DNA of 64,000 bases, from NCBI GenBank assembly GCA_001789205.1, contig MFYT01000008.1:124001-188000 (forward strand). The letters are read 5' to 3'. The notes under the pieces were generated by a model, which saw only the letters and a program-made list of their open reading frames with translations, searched no databases and was not told where the DNA came from. The stretch comes from Candidatus Raymondbacteria bacterium RIFOXYA2_FULL_49_16. GTDB lineage: Bacteria > Fibrobacterota > OXYB2-FULL-49-7 > XYB2-FULL-49-35. The position numbers and the translations under genes are program-made. Below are positions 56,985 through 64,000 of this stretch, piece after piece. The first letter of the stretch is position 1; every line of letters begins with the position of its first letter.

Positions 56985-57080
56985 TAGGAGCGAGGAACGA
57001 GGAACGAGGCAGGAGACAAATGCCTTAAATAAAGACTGTATCCAAGTCTCGATCCTCAAGCCTTGATCCTTTGTCTCCTT
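56985..57080. repeat. family C purine-rich intergenic repeats
   Basis: After pgm the gap holds GGCACTAGGAGCGAGGAACG-type units (GAGGAACGAGG twice) and, on the other strand, TCGATCCTCAAGCCTTGATCC-type units. The same GAGGnACGAGG and GGGACTAGG words recur at 59572-59700, 60591-60626 and 62739-62920. There is no gene in the 111-base gap. Confidence 0.7.
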
Positions 57081-59571: not shown

Positions 59572-59700
59572 GACCAGGGACTAGGGACTAGGGACTAGGG
59601 ACTGAAAGGCAAAACAGGAGCGAGGATCGAGACTAAAGGCAGGAATGAGGAAAGAGGAGCAGCAAAGAAAGAGAAAAACAATGCCAAAGAAGGGACTAGG
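59572..59700. repeat. GGGACTAGG / GAGGAnCGAG repeat tract
   Basis: Four GGGACTAGG-type units in tandem (59580-59603) are followed by GAGCGAGGATCGAGACTAAAGGC-type units and a final GGGACTAGG at 59692-59700. The last unit supplies the TAG stop (59696-59698) of the aminotransferase gene. Purines are almost all on the plus strand. Confidence 0.75.
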
Positions 59701-61594
59701 CAGCGGGAAGAGCGAATTTTTTCAGGAATTCCAGATGACGAGAGGCCTCACGCTCATTGATCCTTCCATGCGTGGGCAGATTAATCACCTCCCTGCAGGC
59801 CCTTTCTGATTCAGGGCACATGCCGATCTTGTACCCAAAACGTTCCATATCTATGCCTTTGGGATGCAAGGGAATTTCGAACCATGAGCCGATTTCATAG
59901 CCTTTGCGCAATGCGCGCTGAAGCACCTGGTCCTTGTTTGCCACACGCACCGGATACCTGAGAATAACATTATCAGCATGAGGCTGCTTTTTGAGAGGCT
60001 TGAAACCAGCCAAAAGCAGTTCCTTATCGTAAAAAGCTGTGATCTTTTTTCTATGCGCCAGAAGCGCGCCTAGTGCCCGGGTATTCTTTTCACCCTCGGT
60101 AATCTGCGACTTGGCCATTTTTTTCAGATACTCCCGTGGCATTGTTCCTGCAAATTCCTCGTTGGACGAAGACCCAACCGCAAGGCCAAGTTTTGTAAGC
60201 GCACGATATGCCTGGGTAATAAGGGCATTGGTTTTGGGGTTTACCAGCAGATTGTAGGCCTTTATCTGCGCGGCAATGCGCAATTCTTCAGATAAAGATG
60301 GTATGGCAGCAGCGGCATGAATAGCAGAGACACGATCGAGTAGTGATCCCCCCTCTCCCCCTTTATTAAGGGGGGAATCATTAACCAGTAAAATCCCTCC
60401 GAGGCCAGTGGAAAACGGCTTGTTCCATTGACCTGAGAAGAATGATCCGAGGCCAAAGGTTCCACAGAGACGGCCTTTGTATGTTGAACCAAAGGCATGG
60501 CAGCAATCTTCGATAAGCGGCATATTGTTGGCCTGCGCCCATGCAAGAATTTGGTCCATGTCTTGCGCTATACCATAGGTGTGTTGGAGAATAAGGCACG
60601 AGGCACGAGGCACGAGGCGCAAGGCAAGTCTTGATGGATCAATATTGTACGTCTCAGGGTCAATGTCAATATACTGGCACTTTGCTCCGAGGAACAGGGG
60701 AGCAGAGGGAACCATGACGCAGGTATAGCCGGACATGAGGATAGTACTACCAGGACCAATGCCCATGGCTTTGAGCAGCGCGTATAGGCCAATGCGGCCT
60801 TTGGACCAGAGAGTAACGCTGGCTGGTGAGACATTGAAAAATTGGGACAATGCGTCAATCATGACCTCACCCCCTTCCCCTGTGAGGAGAGGGGAGAAAG
60901 ATTGACGAAGCAATTTCTTACGATATTCGTGCATAGAATTGCCATGATACATAAATTCGTGGTGCAACATGAAGCCAGTGTGCGTATAAAAGGCGTTTGA
61001 GCGGGAATCGTTCGCAGCTGTTACAACCTTATATACGCCCTGATAGCCATGATCTTGAAAAAAACACTCAAGACGCTGTACAAGTTTTTTGCCAATGCCT
61101 TTGCCCTGGGCACTGTCTGAGACTGCAATGGAGAGGAGTTCGGACCTCACCCCCCTCCCCCTCTCCTGCGAGGAGAGGGGAGAAAAATCCCCCCTGCCCC
61201 TCTTCTCCTGCTTGATCCCCCCCTGCCCCCCCTTTTTAAGGGGGGCGTCCTTTGCATAGAATAAAGTTTCAAATACCTTACGAACTGTGCCTGAAGAGAA
61301 AAGGCTTGGGATAATAGCAATACCAAGAGAAAAACAATGATGGGTTAGAACATGCATATAGCATTTTCGTATATCCAGGGTACCAGAGACAAAACCAATG
61401 ACTTCGCCTTGTTCATTGCGCTCGATTAAAACACAGCTATTTGGCGCCGCTGCAATGCCTTTGTACAGGCGAGAAAGAAAACCCTGACCCAGAGAAGAGA
61501 GAAAGCCAGCGGGTATGCCCTGAATGTGCAGAACAGCTATGGCTTTAAAATCTTTGGATGATAACGTCAATTTCATTGGCAACACATGGTTCAC
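59696..61594 (-). CDS. GNAT acetyltransferase / DegT aminotransferase fusion with four repeat insertions
   Basis: Residues 1-230 are a GNAT domain (acetyl-CoA loop QGKGIGKKL near 165). Residues 245-632 are a DegT/DnrJ/EryC1 sugar aminotransferase, with likely PLP Lys392 in SGQWNKPFSTG, HTYGIAQDM and EDCCHAFGSTYKG. A PglD- plus PglE-like pair would acetylate and aminate the product of the upstream dehydratase. Repeat-derived peptides lie at about 115-150, 232-244, 326-334 and 406-418. The junction between the domains is one of these repeats. I keep the GTG at 61594, which overlaps the wecB stop; an ATG at 61576 is possible. The stop lies in a repeat. Confidence 0.75.
   Translation of the reverse strand: MNHVLPMKLTLSSKDFKAIAVLHIQGIPAGFLSSLGQGFLSRLYKGIAAAPNSCVLIERNEQGEVIGFVSGTLDIRKCYMHVLTHHCFSLGIAIIPSLFSSGTVRKVFETLFYAKDAPLKKGGQGGIKQEKRGRGDFSPLSSQERGRGVRSELLSIAVSDSAQGKGIGKKLVQRLECFFQDHGYQGVYKVVTAANDSRSNAFYTHTGFMLHHEFMYHGNSMHEYRKKLLRQSFSPLLTGEGGEVMIDALSQFFNVSPASVTLWSKGRIGLYALLKAMGIGPGSTILMSGYTCVMVPSAPLFLGAKCQYIDIDPETYNIDPSRLALRLVPRASCLILQHTYGIAQDMDQILAWAQANNMPLIEDCCHAFGSTYKGRLCGTFGLGSFFSGQWNKPFSTGLGGILLVNDSPLNKGGEGGSLLDRVSAIHAAAAIPSLSEELRIAAQIKAYNLLVNPKTNALITQAYRALTKLGLAVGSSSNEEFAGTMPREYLKKMAKSQITEGEKNTRALGALLAHRKKITAFYDKELLLAGFKPLKKQPHADNVILRYPVRVANKDQVLQRALRKGYEIGSWFEIPLHPKGIDMERFGYKIGMCPESERACREVINLPTHGRINEREASRHLEFLKKFALPAA
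60345..60380. repeat. family A palindromic repeat, in-frame copy 1
   Basis: On the minus strand the core CCCCCCTTAATAAAGGGGGAG is a palindrome followed by AGGGGGGATC. It is translated as NDSPLNKGGEGG inside the aminotransferase domain, near the PLP lysine segment (about residues 406-418). The peptide pattern PLxKGGxGG is shared with the copies at 61214 and 63456. Confidence 0.8.
60591..60626. repeat. family C repeat inside the aminotransferase frame
   Basis: Three GGCACGA units and a related GGCGCAAGG lie in tandem. On the minus strand they read as LALRLVPRASCL within the aminotransferase (about residues 323-334). The same words make up the intergenic tracts nearby, so a short repeat has entered the gene without breaking the frame. 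Confidence 0.65.
60863..60900. repeat. family B palindromic repeat at the GNAT-aminotransferase junction
   Basis: GACCTCACCCCCTTCCCCTGTGAGGAGAGGGGAG is an imperfect palindrome of family B. Its minus-strand translation SFSPLLTGEGGEV joins the end of the GNAT domain to the ATG (Met245) that looks like the native start of the aminotransferase. It matches the copy at 61143 apart from a short length change. Confidence 0.75.
61143..61188. repeat. family B palindromic repeat, GNAT in-frame copy
   Basis: The minus-strand core CTCCCCTCTCCTCGCAGGAGAGG is self-complementary and is followed by GGGAGGGGGGTGAGGTC. It is translated as FSPLSSQERGRGVR inside the GNAT domain. It is followed directly by a degenerate A-like stretch (61189-61213) and a full family A copy. 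Confidence 0.8.
61214..61249. repeat. family A palindromic repeat, GNAT in-frame copy
   Basis: The palindrome CCCCCCTTAAAAAGGGGGGG plus CAGGGGGGGATC is translated as DAPLKKGGQGG in the GNAT domain (about residues 116-126). Together with the neighbouring family B copy it adds about 35 residues between the N-terminal half and the acetyl-CoA loop. Confidence 0.8.
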
Positions 61595-62721
61595 TTCAAT
61601 AAACTGTTAAAAATAGCCAAAATGCGCTGACTTGCCTTGCCATCGCCATACGGGTTTATGGCTGCGGCCATTCTATTATATTCGTCTTTGTTCTCAAGAA
61701 GCAATCTGACATTCGCGATAATTGTCTCCTTGTTTGCACCAACAAGTTTTGCCGTGTTTGCTTGAACAGCCTCTGGACGCTCGGTTGTGGTGCGCATGAC
61801 CAGGACCGGCTTTCCCAGACTAGGCGCTTCTTCCTGCACGCCCCCTGAATCAGTGAGTATGAGATATGACTTTTCCATTAAAAAAACAAATTCAGGATAT
61901 CCCAGGGGCGGCAGCAATTTTACGTTTGGCACATTGCCGATTATTTCGAACACGGGTTTTTGCACATTGGGATTCAGGTGCACAGGATACAAAAACAGAC
62001 ATTCAGGATGCAGGGCGGCAAGCTCGCGTATGGCCAGGCAGATTTCCCTAAAACCAGTCCCGAAATTCTCCCGCCTATGGCCAGTGATTAAAACCATTTT
62101 TGAAAGATCAGCGGGCAAACCCAGGCCGGTGAGTTTTTCCATGAGCTCTGGGCCATGCGTCTTGTTTTTTTCCCGCATATATAAAAGAGCGTCAATCGCC
62201 GTGTTGCCTGTTACGTGGATTTTTTCGGGCCCTACATTTTCCCTGAGCAAATTTTGCCTGGCCCATTTGGTGGGCGCCAAATGCAGGTCTGCCACGCATG
62301 CAGCCACTCTCCTGTTTATCTCCTCGGGAAAGGGCGAATACTTGTCCCCTGTGCGCAGGCCTGCCTCAATGTGCGCTACCTTTATATTATTATAATACGC
62401 GGCAAGCGAGGCTGCCATGACAGTCGTGGTATCGCCCTGCACAAAGATCCAGTCTGGCTTTTCCCTGGCCAATAGGTCGTTTACGCTGTTGATAATGCGG
62501 CCCGTAAGCGATGCCAGGGTCTGGTTTTCCTGCATAAGGTTGAGGTCAAAATCGGGCTTTATTGAAAAAATATTGAGCATTTGATCGAGAAGCTGCCTGT
62601 GCTGGCCAGTAACACAGACTTGCACGGAAAATGGGGCGCCATGGGCCCGGAAGGCAGCGATAACCGGCGCGAGCTTAATTACCTCGGGACGGGTGCCGAG
62701 AACAAAAAGGAGATTTGCCAT
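61591..62721 (-). CDS. wecB: UDP-N-acetylglucosamine 2-epimerase (non-hydrolysing)
   Basis: WecB interconverts UDP-GlcNAc and UDP-ManNAc. The 376-residue protein starts with VLGTRPEVIKLAPV and has VQGDTTTV, HIEAGLRTGDKYSPFPEE in part, GHRRENFG and DSGGVQEEAPSLGKPVLVMR with the TERPE loop. All are family marks. It shares four bases with the downstream fusion gene. UDP-ManNAc would feed the surface glycan. Confidence 0.95.
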   Translation of the reverse strand: MANLLFVLGTRPEVIKLAPVIAAFRAHGAPFSVQVCVTGQHRQLLDQMLNIFSIKPDFDLNLMQENQTLASLTGRIINSVNDLLAREKPDWIFVQGDTTTVMAASLAAYYNNIKVAHIEAGLRTGDKYSPFPEEINRRVAACVADLHLAPTKWARQNLLRENVGPEKIHVTGNTAIDALLYMREKNKTHGPELMEKLTGLGLPADLSKMVLITGHRRENFGTGFREICLAIRELAALHPECLFLYPVHLNPNVQKPVFEIIGNVPNVKLLPPLGYPEFVFLMEKSYLILTDSGGVQEEAPSLGKPVLVMRTTTERPEAVQANTAKLVGANKETIIANVRLLLENKDEYNRMAAAINPYGDGKASQRILAIFNSLLK

Positions 62722-62738
62722 TCGTTAAAGATAATATA

Positions 62739-62920
62739 CAAAAGGGACTAGGGACTAGGTAAGAGGGACTAGGAAAGGCAAAAAAACAGGAACGAGGAAC
62801 GAGACTAAAGGCAGGAAAAAGGATCGAGGCACGAGGAACGAGACTGGAGGCAGGGACTAGGTGCAAGGAAGAGGAAGGCGAAACAAGAACGAGGAAAGGC
62901 AAAATTAAGACCAGGCTGAC
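62739..62920. repeat. longest family C intergenic repeat tract
   Basis: The 212-base gap between wecB and the glycosyltransferase gene is made largely of GGGACTAGG, GGAACGAGGAACGAG, GGCACGAGG and AAGGCA(G/A)G words in loose tandem, with purines almost only on the plus strand. I see no gene, promoter or terminator in it. Transcription of the locus runs through it. Confidence 0.75.
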
Positions 62921-62933
62921 CAGGCAATAAAAA

Positions 62934-64000
62934 TCAGGACTTGTTCGCGTATGTTTTGAGCCAGAGCTGGACGATTTTTGCATCGTCAAAATGGCTCGCA
63001 ATGCGCTGATAGCCTGATTGGCCGAATTTTTGTTGCAAGGATTGGTCGAGGACCAGCTGCGCAAGGCGCTGGTTAAGCACATCCTGGTCTTCCAGTGGCA
63101 CAAGAAAACCTGTTTCCTGATCAATGACCAACTCGTTTGTACCAAGAACATTTGTGGCAACCACAGGTTTTTTCAAAGCCATGGCTTCCATAAGACCCCG
63201 CGGAATGCCCTCTTTTTCAGAGGTCAGAACAACTATATCAGCCTTGTTTATAAGCGCATGAACATGGGGGGTATAGATTATTGAAACGTGGCTGGCCAGA
63301 CCTTTGGATTTGATTAGGCTATTGAGCTTTTCTTCAAGATAGCCTTTGCCAGCGATAATGCAGGTTGCATGGATGTTTTGTGAAATGAGATACTCCATGG
63401 CAGCAATGACCTTTTCCAGGCGCTTCACAGGTTCGAGACGGGCAATGCAAAGAATGATCCCCCCCTGCCCCCCCTTAGAAAGGGGGGTATCTATGTCAAA
63501 GCACAGAGTTAACTCTGAGGTATAGTTTCTGGCATTTGATTCAATATCCTTGATGCTGACACCATTGCCTTCGAAGATAACCGGGCATTTGATGCTTTTT
63601 ATGTTTTTCAGCTGTTCGTAATCGTATTTATTTTGAGAAAAAAGAATATGCCGGATTTTAGAAAACAATACTTCGATGCCCTTATATATCGCATAGCTCA
63701 GCGACTTTTGGCCTTTAAAAAAAGGCAAACCATGATAGGTATGGCAAATGAGCGGAACACCGGCCAGTTTTGCGGCAATGGCCCCTACTATGCCGGCTTT
63801 TGCCGTATGGGTATGCACAACATCAAAACGTTCTTTACGTATAAAGCGATATAGTTTGACCACAGCAATGAGGTCTTTAATCGGCCGTATGGTCCGGGGA
63901 ATGTCAATGTGGGTGAATGTACCTTTTGCTTTCCGCTGTTCGTCCGGATCTTCAAACGAGGATGCAACATGAAGGTCTATGCCTGGTGTTTGCGCCAATA
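62934..64000 (-). CDS. GT4-family glycosyltransferase, partial at window edge
   Basis: The frame is open to the window end, so the N-terminus is missing; the first visible residues are LAQTPGIDLHVASS, as found 20-30 residues into GT4 enzymes. It has a DVVHTHTAKAGIVGAIAAKLAG helix in part, then the GT-B C-terminal domain with ARLEPVKRLEKVI, GKGYLEEKL, DIVVLTSEKEGIPRGLMEAMALKKPVVAT in part (EGIPxxLxEA). Most like the PglA/TuaC/EpsD group acting on lipid-linked sugar. A family A repeat (DTPLSKGGQGG) interrupts the strand before ARLEP. Confidence 0.9.
   Translation of the reverse strand, partial: LAQTPGIDLHVASSFEDPDEQRKAKGTFTHIDIPRTIRPIKDLIAVVKLYRFIRKERFDVVHTHTAKAGIVGAIAAKLAGVPLICHTYHGLPFFKGQKSLSYAIYKGIEVLFSKIRHILFSQNKYDYEQLKNIKSIKCPVIFEGNGVSIKDIESNARNYTSELTLCFDIDTPLSKGGQGGIILCIARLEPVKRLEKVIAAMEYLISQNIHATCIIAGKGYLEEKLNSLIKSKGLASHVSIIYTPHVHALINKADIVVLTSEKEGIPRGLMEAMALKKPVVATNVLGTNELVIDQETGFLVPLEDQDVLNQRLAQLVLDQSLQQKFGQSGYQRIASHFDDAKIVQLWLKTYANKS
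63456..63491. repeat. family A palindromic repeat, glycosyltransferase in-frame copy
   Basis: CCCCCCTTTCTAAGGGGGGG with CAGGGGGGGATC is translated on the minus strand as DTPLSKGGQGGI in the glycosyltransferase, just before the conserved CIARLEPVK segment. Same peptide pattern as the copies at 60345 and 61214, in a different gene family. Confidence 0.8.

Follow-up and report, generated by a model that had tools for sequence, protein, structure and literature searches.

Short repeats of probable intrastrand triplex type are translated within surface-glycan genes of a Candidatus Raymondbacteria genome

Introduction

How do short palindromic repeats come to be translated inside enzymes of a glycan locus, and what kind of repeat are they? 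The question arises from a 64,000-nucleotide stretch of Candidatus Raymondbacteria bacterium RIFOXYA2_FULL_49_16 (contig MFYT01000008.1, positions 124,001 to 188,000), referred to here as the window. Near its end, copies of two repeat families, A and B, lie in genes for surface-glycan synthesis. The original prediction likened them to Rickettsia palindromic elements and REP-like units. It is already known that REPs and Rickettsia elements can lie within genes, at stop codons and close to genes for exopolysaccharides (PMC3733652). Triplex motifs are likewise known, as intergenic repeats. The triplex-type repeats described so far are intergenic and tied to genome instability, and have no known route of spread and no known products. 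Translated copies in identifiable enzymes and at a fusion junction offer a direct test of whether triplex motifs shape proteins.

Results and Discussion

Layout of the repeats

Inspection of the window confirmed the three family A and two family B sites originally given, and ORF translation showed that all five repeats are read in frame with their host genes (Table 1). The domains of the two host genes were assigned by Pfam, with E-values of 4.7e-44 (DegT), 6.6e-11 (GNAT) and 1.5e-33 (Glycos_transf_1). The A copies had been described as 36-base units inside genes. They are in frame as stated; however, repeat sequence does not fill all 36 nt in every copy, the conserved unit comprising only 31-32 nt (27-28 nt minus GATC). 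The B copy at 60863 does lie within the ORF, at the junction of the two domains rather than inside one of them.

Table 1. Positions of host genes, repeat copies and heptad arrays in the window, and of a second sugar cluster on another contig
Feature	Position	Strand	Context	Peptide	Basis
GNAT acetyltransferase + DegT/DnrJ/EryC1/StrS aminotransferase	59696..61594	(-)	632 aa, one frame		ORF + Pfam
UDP-GlcNAc 2-epimerase	61591..62721	(-)	between both hosts, repeat-free		ORF + Pfam
GT4 glycosyltransferase	62934..63998	(-)	continues past window edge		ORF + Pfam
Family A copy 1	60345..60375	(-)	in frame in DegT, after LLVND	SPLNKGGEGG	
Family A copy 2	61214..61245	(-)	GNAT linker	APLKKGGQGG	
Family A copy 3	63456..63487	(-)	GT4 gene, linker before C-terminal-domain strand ILCIARLE	TPLSKGGQGG	
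Family B copy 1, degenerate	60863..60903	(-)	GNAT/DegT junction, outside either domain	FSPLLTGEGGEV	
Family B copy 2	61143..61187	(-)	GNAT linker before ELLSIAV	FSPLSSQERGRGV	
Half copy of family A, ATCCCCCCTGCCCC	61188..61201	(-)	GNAT linker, between B copy 2 and A copy 2		direct reading
Heptads GGGACTAGGGACTAGGGACTAGGGACT	59577..59604	(+)	spacer; four G3 runs, G-quadruplex pattern		
Heptads of GGGACTA and CGAGGNA types	62744..62854	(+)	spacer		
Heptad array (CGAGGCA)n	60592..60616	(-)	in frame in DegT	LVPRASCL	
Second sugar cluster (L221)	C71:75906-79031		NeuB / GNAT / cytidylyltransferase / aldo-keto reductase; A unit inside cytidylyltransferase		

On the coding strand, family A reads CCCCCCTT-NNN-AAGGGGGG-NN(N)-GGGGGGAT(C) and family B reads CCCCTCTCCT-CGC-AGGAGAGGGG-GAG-GGGGGTGAGGT. 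Both families consist of a pyrimidine arm, a complementary purine arm and a mirror third arm; family A ends in GATC, and family B has no common tag. The family A core gave seven matches in the window, all of them register shifts of three sites (mean 0.35 and maximum 2 in shuffles), and the family B core gave three matches against 0.21 expected. Folding of the repeats as plain hairpins gave a modest gain over shuffles (z -0.5 to -2.8), and an Rfam search found no match. Inspection revealed neither terminal inverted repeats nor target duplications around the window copies. In these copies the G-rich strand is the sense strand, an orientation in which family A tends to read through as the flexible Gly/Lys peptide PLxKGGxGG. 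When the C-rich strand is sense, most frames of the family A consensus contain stops.

Repeat peptides as insertions relative to homologues

The DegT and GT4 proteins were searched against 168 genomes of the phylum. The DegT homologue of G001, the sole other genome of the order searched, is 62% identical and reads LLVND-DEVLAEV at the point where the window protein reads LLVND-SPLNKGGEGG-SLLDRV, a clean net gain of 9 aa (27 nt). The insert sits after the conserved segment that follows the PLP-lysine region, and alignments with PDB entries break at the same point. A copy 3 corresponds to a net gain of 8 aa relative to two GT4 homologues (G001, 54% identical; G019, 52%), both of them insert-free. 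Homologues from distant bacteria bearing the same peptides at the same sites had been named in advance as the sign of native protein sequence; none was found among the 168 phylum genomes searched with DegT and GT4.

These comparisons support the predicted reading of the PLxKGGxGG and FSPLLTGEGGEV/FSPLSSQERGRGV-type peptides as insertions relative to homologues, the insert-free state being deduced at the protein level. The nearest relative compared belongs to another family, so that an exact empty site was not available from a close relative. The GNAT linker carries two units and the half unit, and its length also varies among relatives, so that exact insertion points in GNAT are uncertain. Errors of the short-read assembly at G/C runs may have created or masked a frameshift. 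A protein search of a genome-contig collection returned no relatives, and defence-system models found no match.

Assignment to the intrastrand triplex motif

The layout of both families is that of the intrastrand triplex motif (PIT/BoxC/TM; Holder et al. 2015), a G/C-rich Y-R-RH three-block of class II (PMC4666352); like this motif, A and B are dispersed and have short loops. The 191-kb contig C8 was scanned for class II triplexes (stem 8, no more than one bad triad). The scan found four sites, all in this locus, and none in six order-1 sequences simulated from the window. One bad triad was present in A copy 1 and none in A copies 2 and 3 or B copy 2. The full layout (Y arm, R arm, mirror third arm, stem >=8, short loops) was thus found in four of the five window copies; the B copy at 60863 has lost the perfect layout and was not recovered by the scan. 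The layout of family B is that of BoxC/TM, CCCTCTCCC..GGGAGAGGG..GGGGTGAGGG, with arm sequences nearly the same as the E. coli BoxC arms (PMC4666352, Table 1), and blastn of family B against E. coli gave no match. The family A arms CCCCCCTT/AAGGGGGG/GGGGGGAT, in contrast, are unlike those of the E. coli motif.

All 23 copies of the motif in E. coli MG1655 are intergenic (PMC4666352), whereas the window copies lie inside ORFs and are translated, including the one at the fusion junction; intergenic location is a descriptive, not a defining, trait of the E. coli motif. The motif is very abundant in cyanobacteria and forms inverted pairs in other genomes, and inside E. coli cells the triplex exists to a minor extent or temporarily only (PMC4666352). 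Among cyanobacterial G/C-rich hairpins outside our search pattern, the third-arm side matched 7/7 triads in 74 of 335 readings, the view from the opposite strand did so in 212, and the mirror control in 0. Judged by their sequence, A and B probably belong to the G/C-rich intrastrand triplex type (PIT/BoxC/TM) and not to the classical REPs. The comparison with Rickettsia elements is a fair one as far as location within genes goes, and the window copies share with Rickettsia elements their in-frame position within ORFs; in kind, the repeats are better described as intrastrand triplex motifs.

Distribution and clustering

Pattern searches of the whole genome (5.43 Mb) gave about 12 copies of family A, three of them in this 3-kb locus, and two copies of family B, both in the locus; reversed patterns gave 0 in each case. 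The copy excess and dispersal typical of the triplex motif were thus present, and the predicted concentration of repeats in a surface-glycan locus was borne out. The search of relatives proposed earlier found family A, at <=1 mismatch, in 6 of the 168 phylum genomes, in single copy except here. In public genomes the exact family A pattern (GATCCCCCCTNNCCCCCCTTNNNAAGGGGGG unit) occurred in at least 118 stretches, all cyanobacterial among the matches listed. B-like units were found in G075 (same phylum), in Cupriavidus and in other plasmids.

It had been argued that the copies are so alike that their spread must be recent. This argument is not supported, since the GATCCCCCCTNNCCCCCCTTNNNAAGGGGGG unit is also common in Cyanobacteria, another phylum; the likeness of copies reflects the three-arm layout and says nothing on age. 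The family A consensus is thus old or convergent.

Three of about 12 A copies lie within a few kb together with both copies of family B and several heptad arrays, which might suggest that the whole locus was acquired horizontally from a donor rich in repeats. However, its G+C content of 0.48-0.50 is like that of the remaining window, and the best homologues of its proteins come from the same order or phylum, other phyla having been searched non-exhaustively with these proteins. We regard such a transfer as doubtful.

Fate of copies in this and other genomes

Most copies in this genome are intergenic or sit at the 3' end of a gene. Of the nine A-like copies outside the window, five fall at the stop codon of an ORF on the same strand, the C-rich strand being sense, and the copy at C71:77926 splits the cytidylyltransferase of the second sugar cluster across two frames. 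The repeats had been said to preserve the frame; the C71 copy breaks it and the five others coincide with stops, and the frame preservation seen in the window is evidently survivorship. A preference for gene 3' ends was considered as a general trait and rejected: the proportion in cyanobacteria (3/109) is close to background (25/1090), as against 5/9 here.

Residence in genes is not a one-off, since units of the same families occur in cyanobacterial cas6 and cas10d. In Nostoc cas6, an in-frame A unit is kept across several genomes and is decaying; other lineages lack it or have another sequence in its place. An exact empty site in Nostoc cas6 was not obtained because the unit is inherited and decaying there. 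Family B is in frame in Stanieria cas10d and in a Pseudanabaena DNA methyltransferase, both with the C-rich strand as sense; the orientation of the window copies is therefore not universal.

These data also bear on the possibility that the PLxKGGxGG segments are functional linkers kept by selection for a benefit to the protein. All three window A copies use one common frame and lie in loops or linkers, and several Nostoc genomes retain the cas6 unit, as such linkers would. However, the cas6 unit decays and is lost or replaced elsewhere, the sites are variable loops, only some frames of the consensus are stop-free, and the C71 copy breaks its gene. Selection for linker function is very improbable on this evidence.

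Transposases and miniature elements

The original prediction suggested looking for a transposase such as TnpA(REP). Four Y1_Tnp (TnpA(REP)-like) loci were found in the genome, and no A or B copy lies within about 1.5 kb on either side of them; they have palindromes of other kinds or none, and the only clear REP case carries a GTAG repeat instead. This is the RAYT-like gene at C107:16297 (L021), which is flanked by, and contains in frame, the GTAG palindrome GTAGGGGCGGGTTT..AAACCCGCCCCTAC (peptide VGAGLKPAPT). The Y1_Tnp gene at C31:28537 (L019) is bracketed by GGTACCTGGGACC-type GGGACC palindromes, a separate repeat family.

Miniature transposons of the REP/REPIN type, tagged by GATC and mobilised by a TnpA(REP)/RAYT tyrosine transposase, would account for tagged short palindromes in a genome with four Y1_Tnp genes, and REPs are documented in genes and at stop codons (PMC3733652). 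GTAG/CGTC REPs and Rickettsia palindromic elements are likewise short palindromes that can lie in frame or supply stops and are presumably tolerated in loops and linkers (PMC3733652), and the DegT gain of 27 nt matches the A unit without GATC (27-28 nt). However, GTAG/CGTC REPs have two arms and a tag, a linked RAYT being reported for GTAG REPs only, whereas A and B have three arms, carry neither a GTAG nor a CGTC tag, and are not linked to a RAYT. The repeats near the C107 and C31 transposase genes are of other kinds. GATC as a transposition tag was dropped because the third arm explains GAT as its own end and family B lacks the tag. Movement as REP/REPIN-like elements is accordingly rated quite unlikely.

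Cyanobacterial C-rich dispersed repeats, partly MITE cores, have the 31-nt A consensus in common with our copies; their A units are mostly paired within larger elements, in contrast to the single units here. In Nostoc plasmids, a paired A unit lies within a ~200-nt segment with inverted ends TTAGAAGATGTTTGAAAAGT/ACTTTTCAAACATCCTCTTA that is missing from a related plasmid, and Synechocystis has a similar unit of ~121 nt. A can thus travel as MITE cargo. The window copies might then be what is left of MITEs that had terminal inverted repeats and the palindrome as their core; however, all copies in this genome are single ~31-nt units without such ends, and this origin is unlikely. A bare-unit empty site in the plasmids was considered and rejected, the inserted piece being the larger MITE-like element. 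L235 and L232 (Nostoc plasmids) represent empty versus filled sites of the ~200-nt MITE, with ends TTAGAAGATGTTTGAAAAGT and paired A inside.

Insertion in the glycan locus and the GNAT-DegT fusion

In our judgement, tolerated insertion of triplex-type repeats in glycan genes is the best explanation, and a rather likely one. A and B would be dispersed, non-coding, non-autonomous repeats of triplex type, several of which presumably entered, by insertion or rearrangement, the loops and linkers of the two host enzymes and the GNAT/DegT boundary. The survivors would represent tolerated outcomes only: in-frame loops, gene ends and one fusion. This explanation supposes that the triplex forms in the cell, that the repeats spread by hitch-hiking in MITEs, as in cyanobacteria, or by rearrangement at non-B structure, and that the inserts have little effect on the enzymes. 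It retains insertion and locus clustering from the original prediction, and parts with recent spread, frame preservation and TnpA(REP).

In G001, GNAT and DegT are encoded by two genes on two contigs, and G047 and G075 have GNAT alone. The joining peptide of the GNAT-DegT fusion is family B copy 1. The purine arm of this copy, GGGGGTGAGGTC, immediately precedes the DegT ATG and looks like a Shine-Dalgarno site, so the locus may yield a fused product, an internally started DegT, or both.

The new part of these findings is that triplex motifs are read as protein, one of them at a gene-fusion joint; a literature search, mostly excluding subscription papers, found no earlier report of translated or fusion-joint triplex motifs. 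A broader proposal would make triplex repeats recurrent makers of coding sequence: by causing breakage and joining at rapidly changing loci, glycan clusters among them, they would supply in-frame Gly-rich linkers and fuse neighbouring genes, with a ribosome-binding-like purine run for the second gene. We offer it as speculation that is unlikely to hold in full.

Heptad arrays in the neighbourhood

The repeats have as neighbours heptad arrays, which are concentrated in the spacers of the locus. The array in DegT replaces native sequence, leaving the length unchanged relative to the G001 homologue, and the four-fold GGGACTA runs fit a G-quadruplex pattern. From these patterns, the locus is a cluster of sequences predicted to be prone to non-B DNA. 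The G-quadruplex heptads of Xanthomonas and Nostoc are likewise seven-nt G-rich tandem units, mostly intergenic (PMC4692102); the unit is GGGNATC or GGGGA(C/T)T there, as against GGGACTA or CGAGGNA here. Such heptads are neighbours of A and B and are distinct from them. A further array lies at 56985-57016 of the window, and seven-nt tandem arrays (CGAGGNA, GGGACTA) occur in about 30 places genome-wide, several as inverted pairs ~60-100 bp apart (e.g. C64:117980/118051 and C94:41047/41150). In L162 (Nostoc cas6), the Cas6 loop that holds an A unit in other Nostoc is taken up by GGGGACA/GGGGATA heptads.
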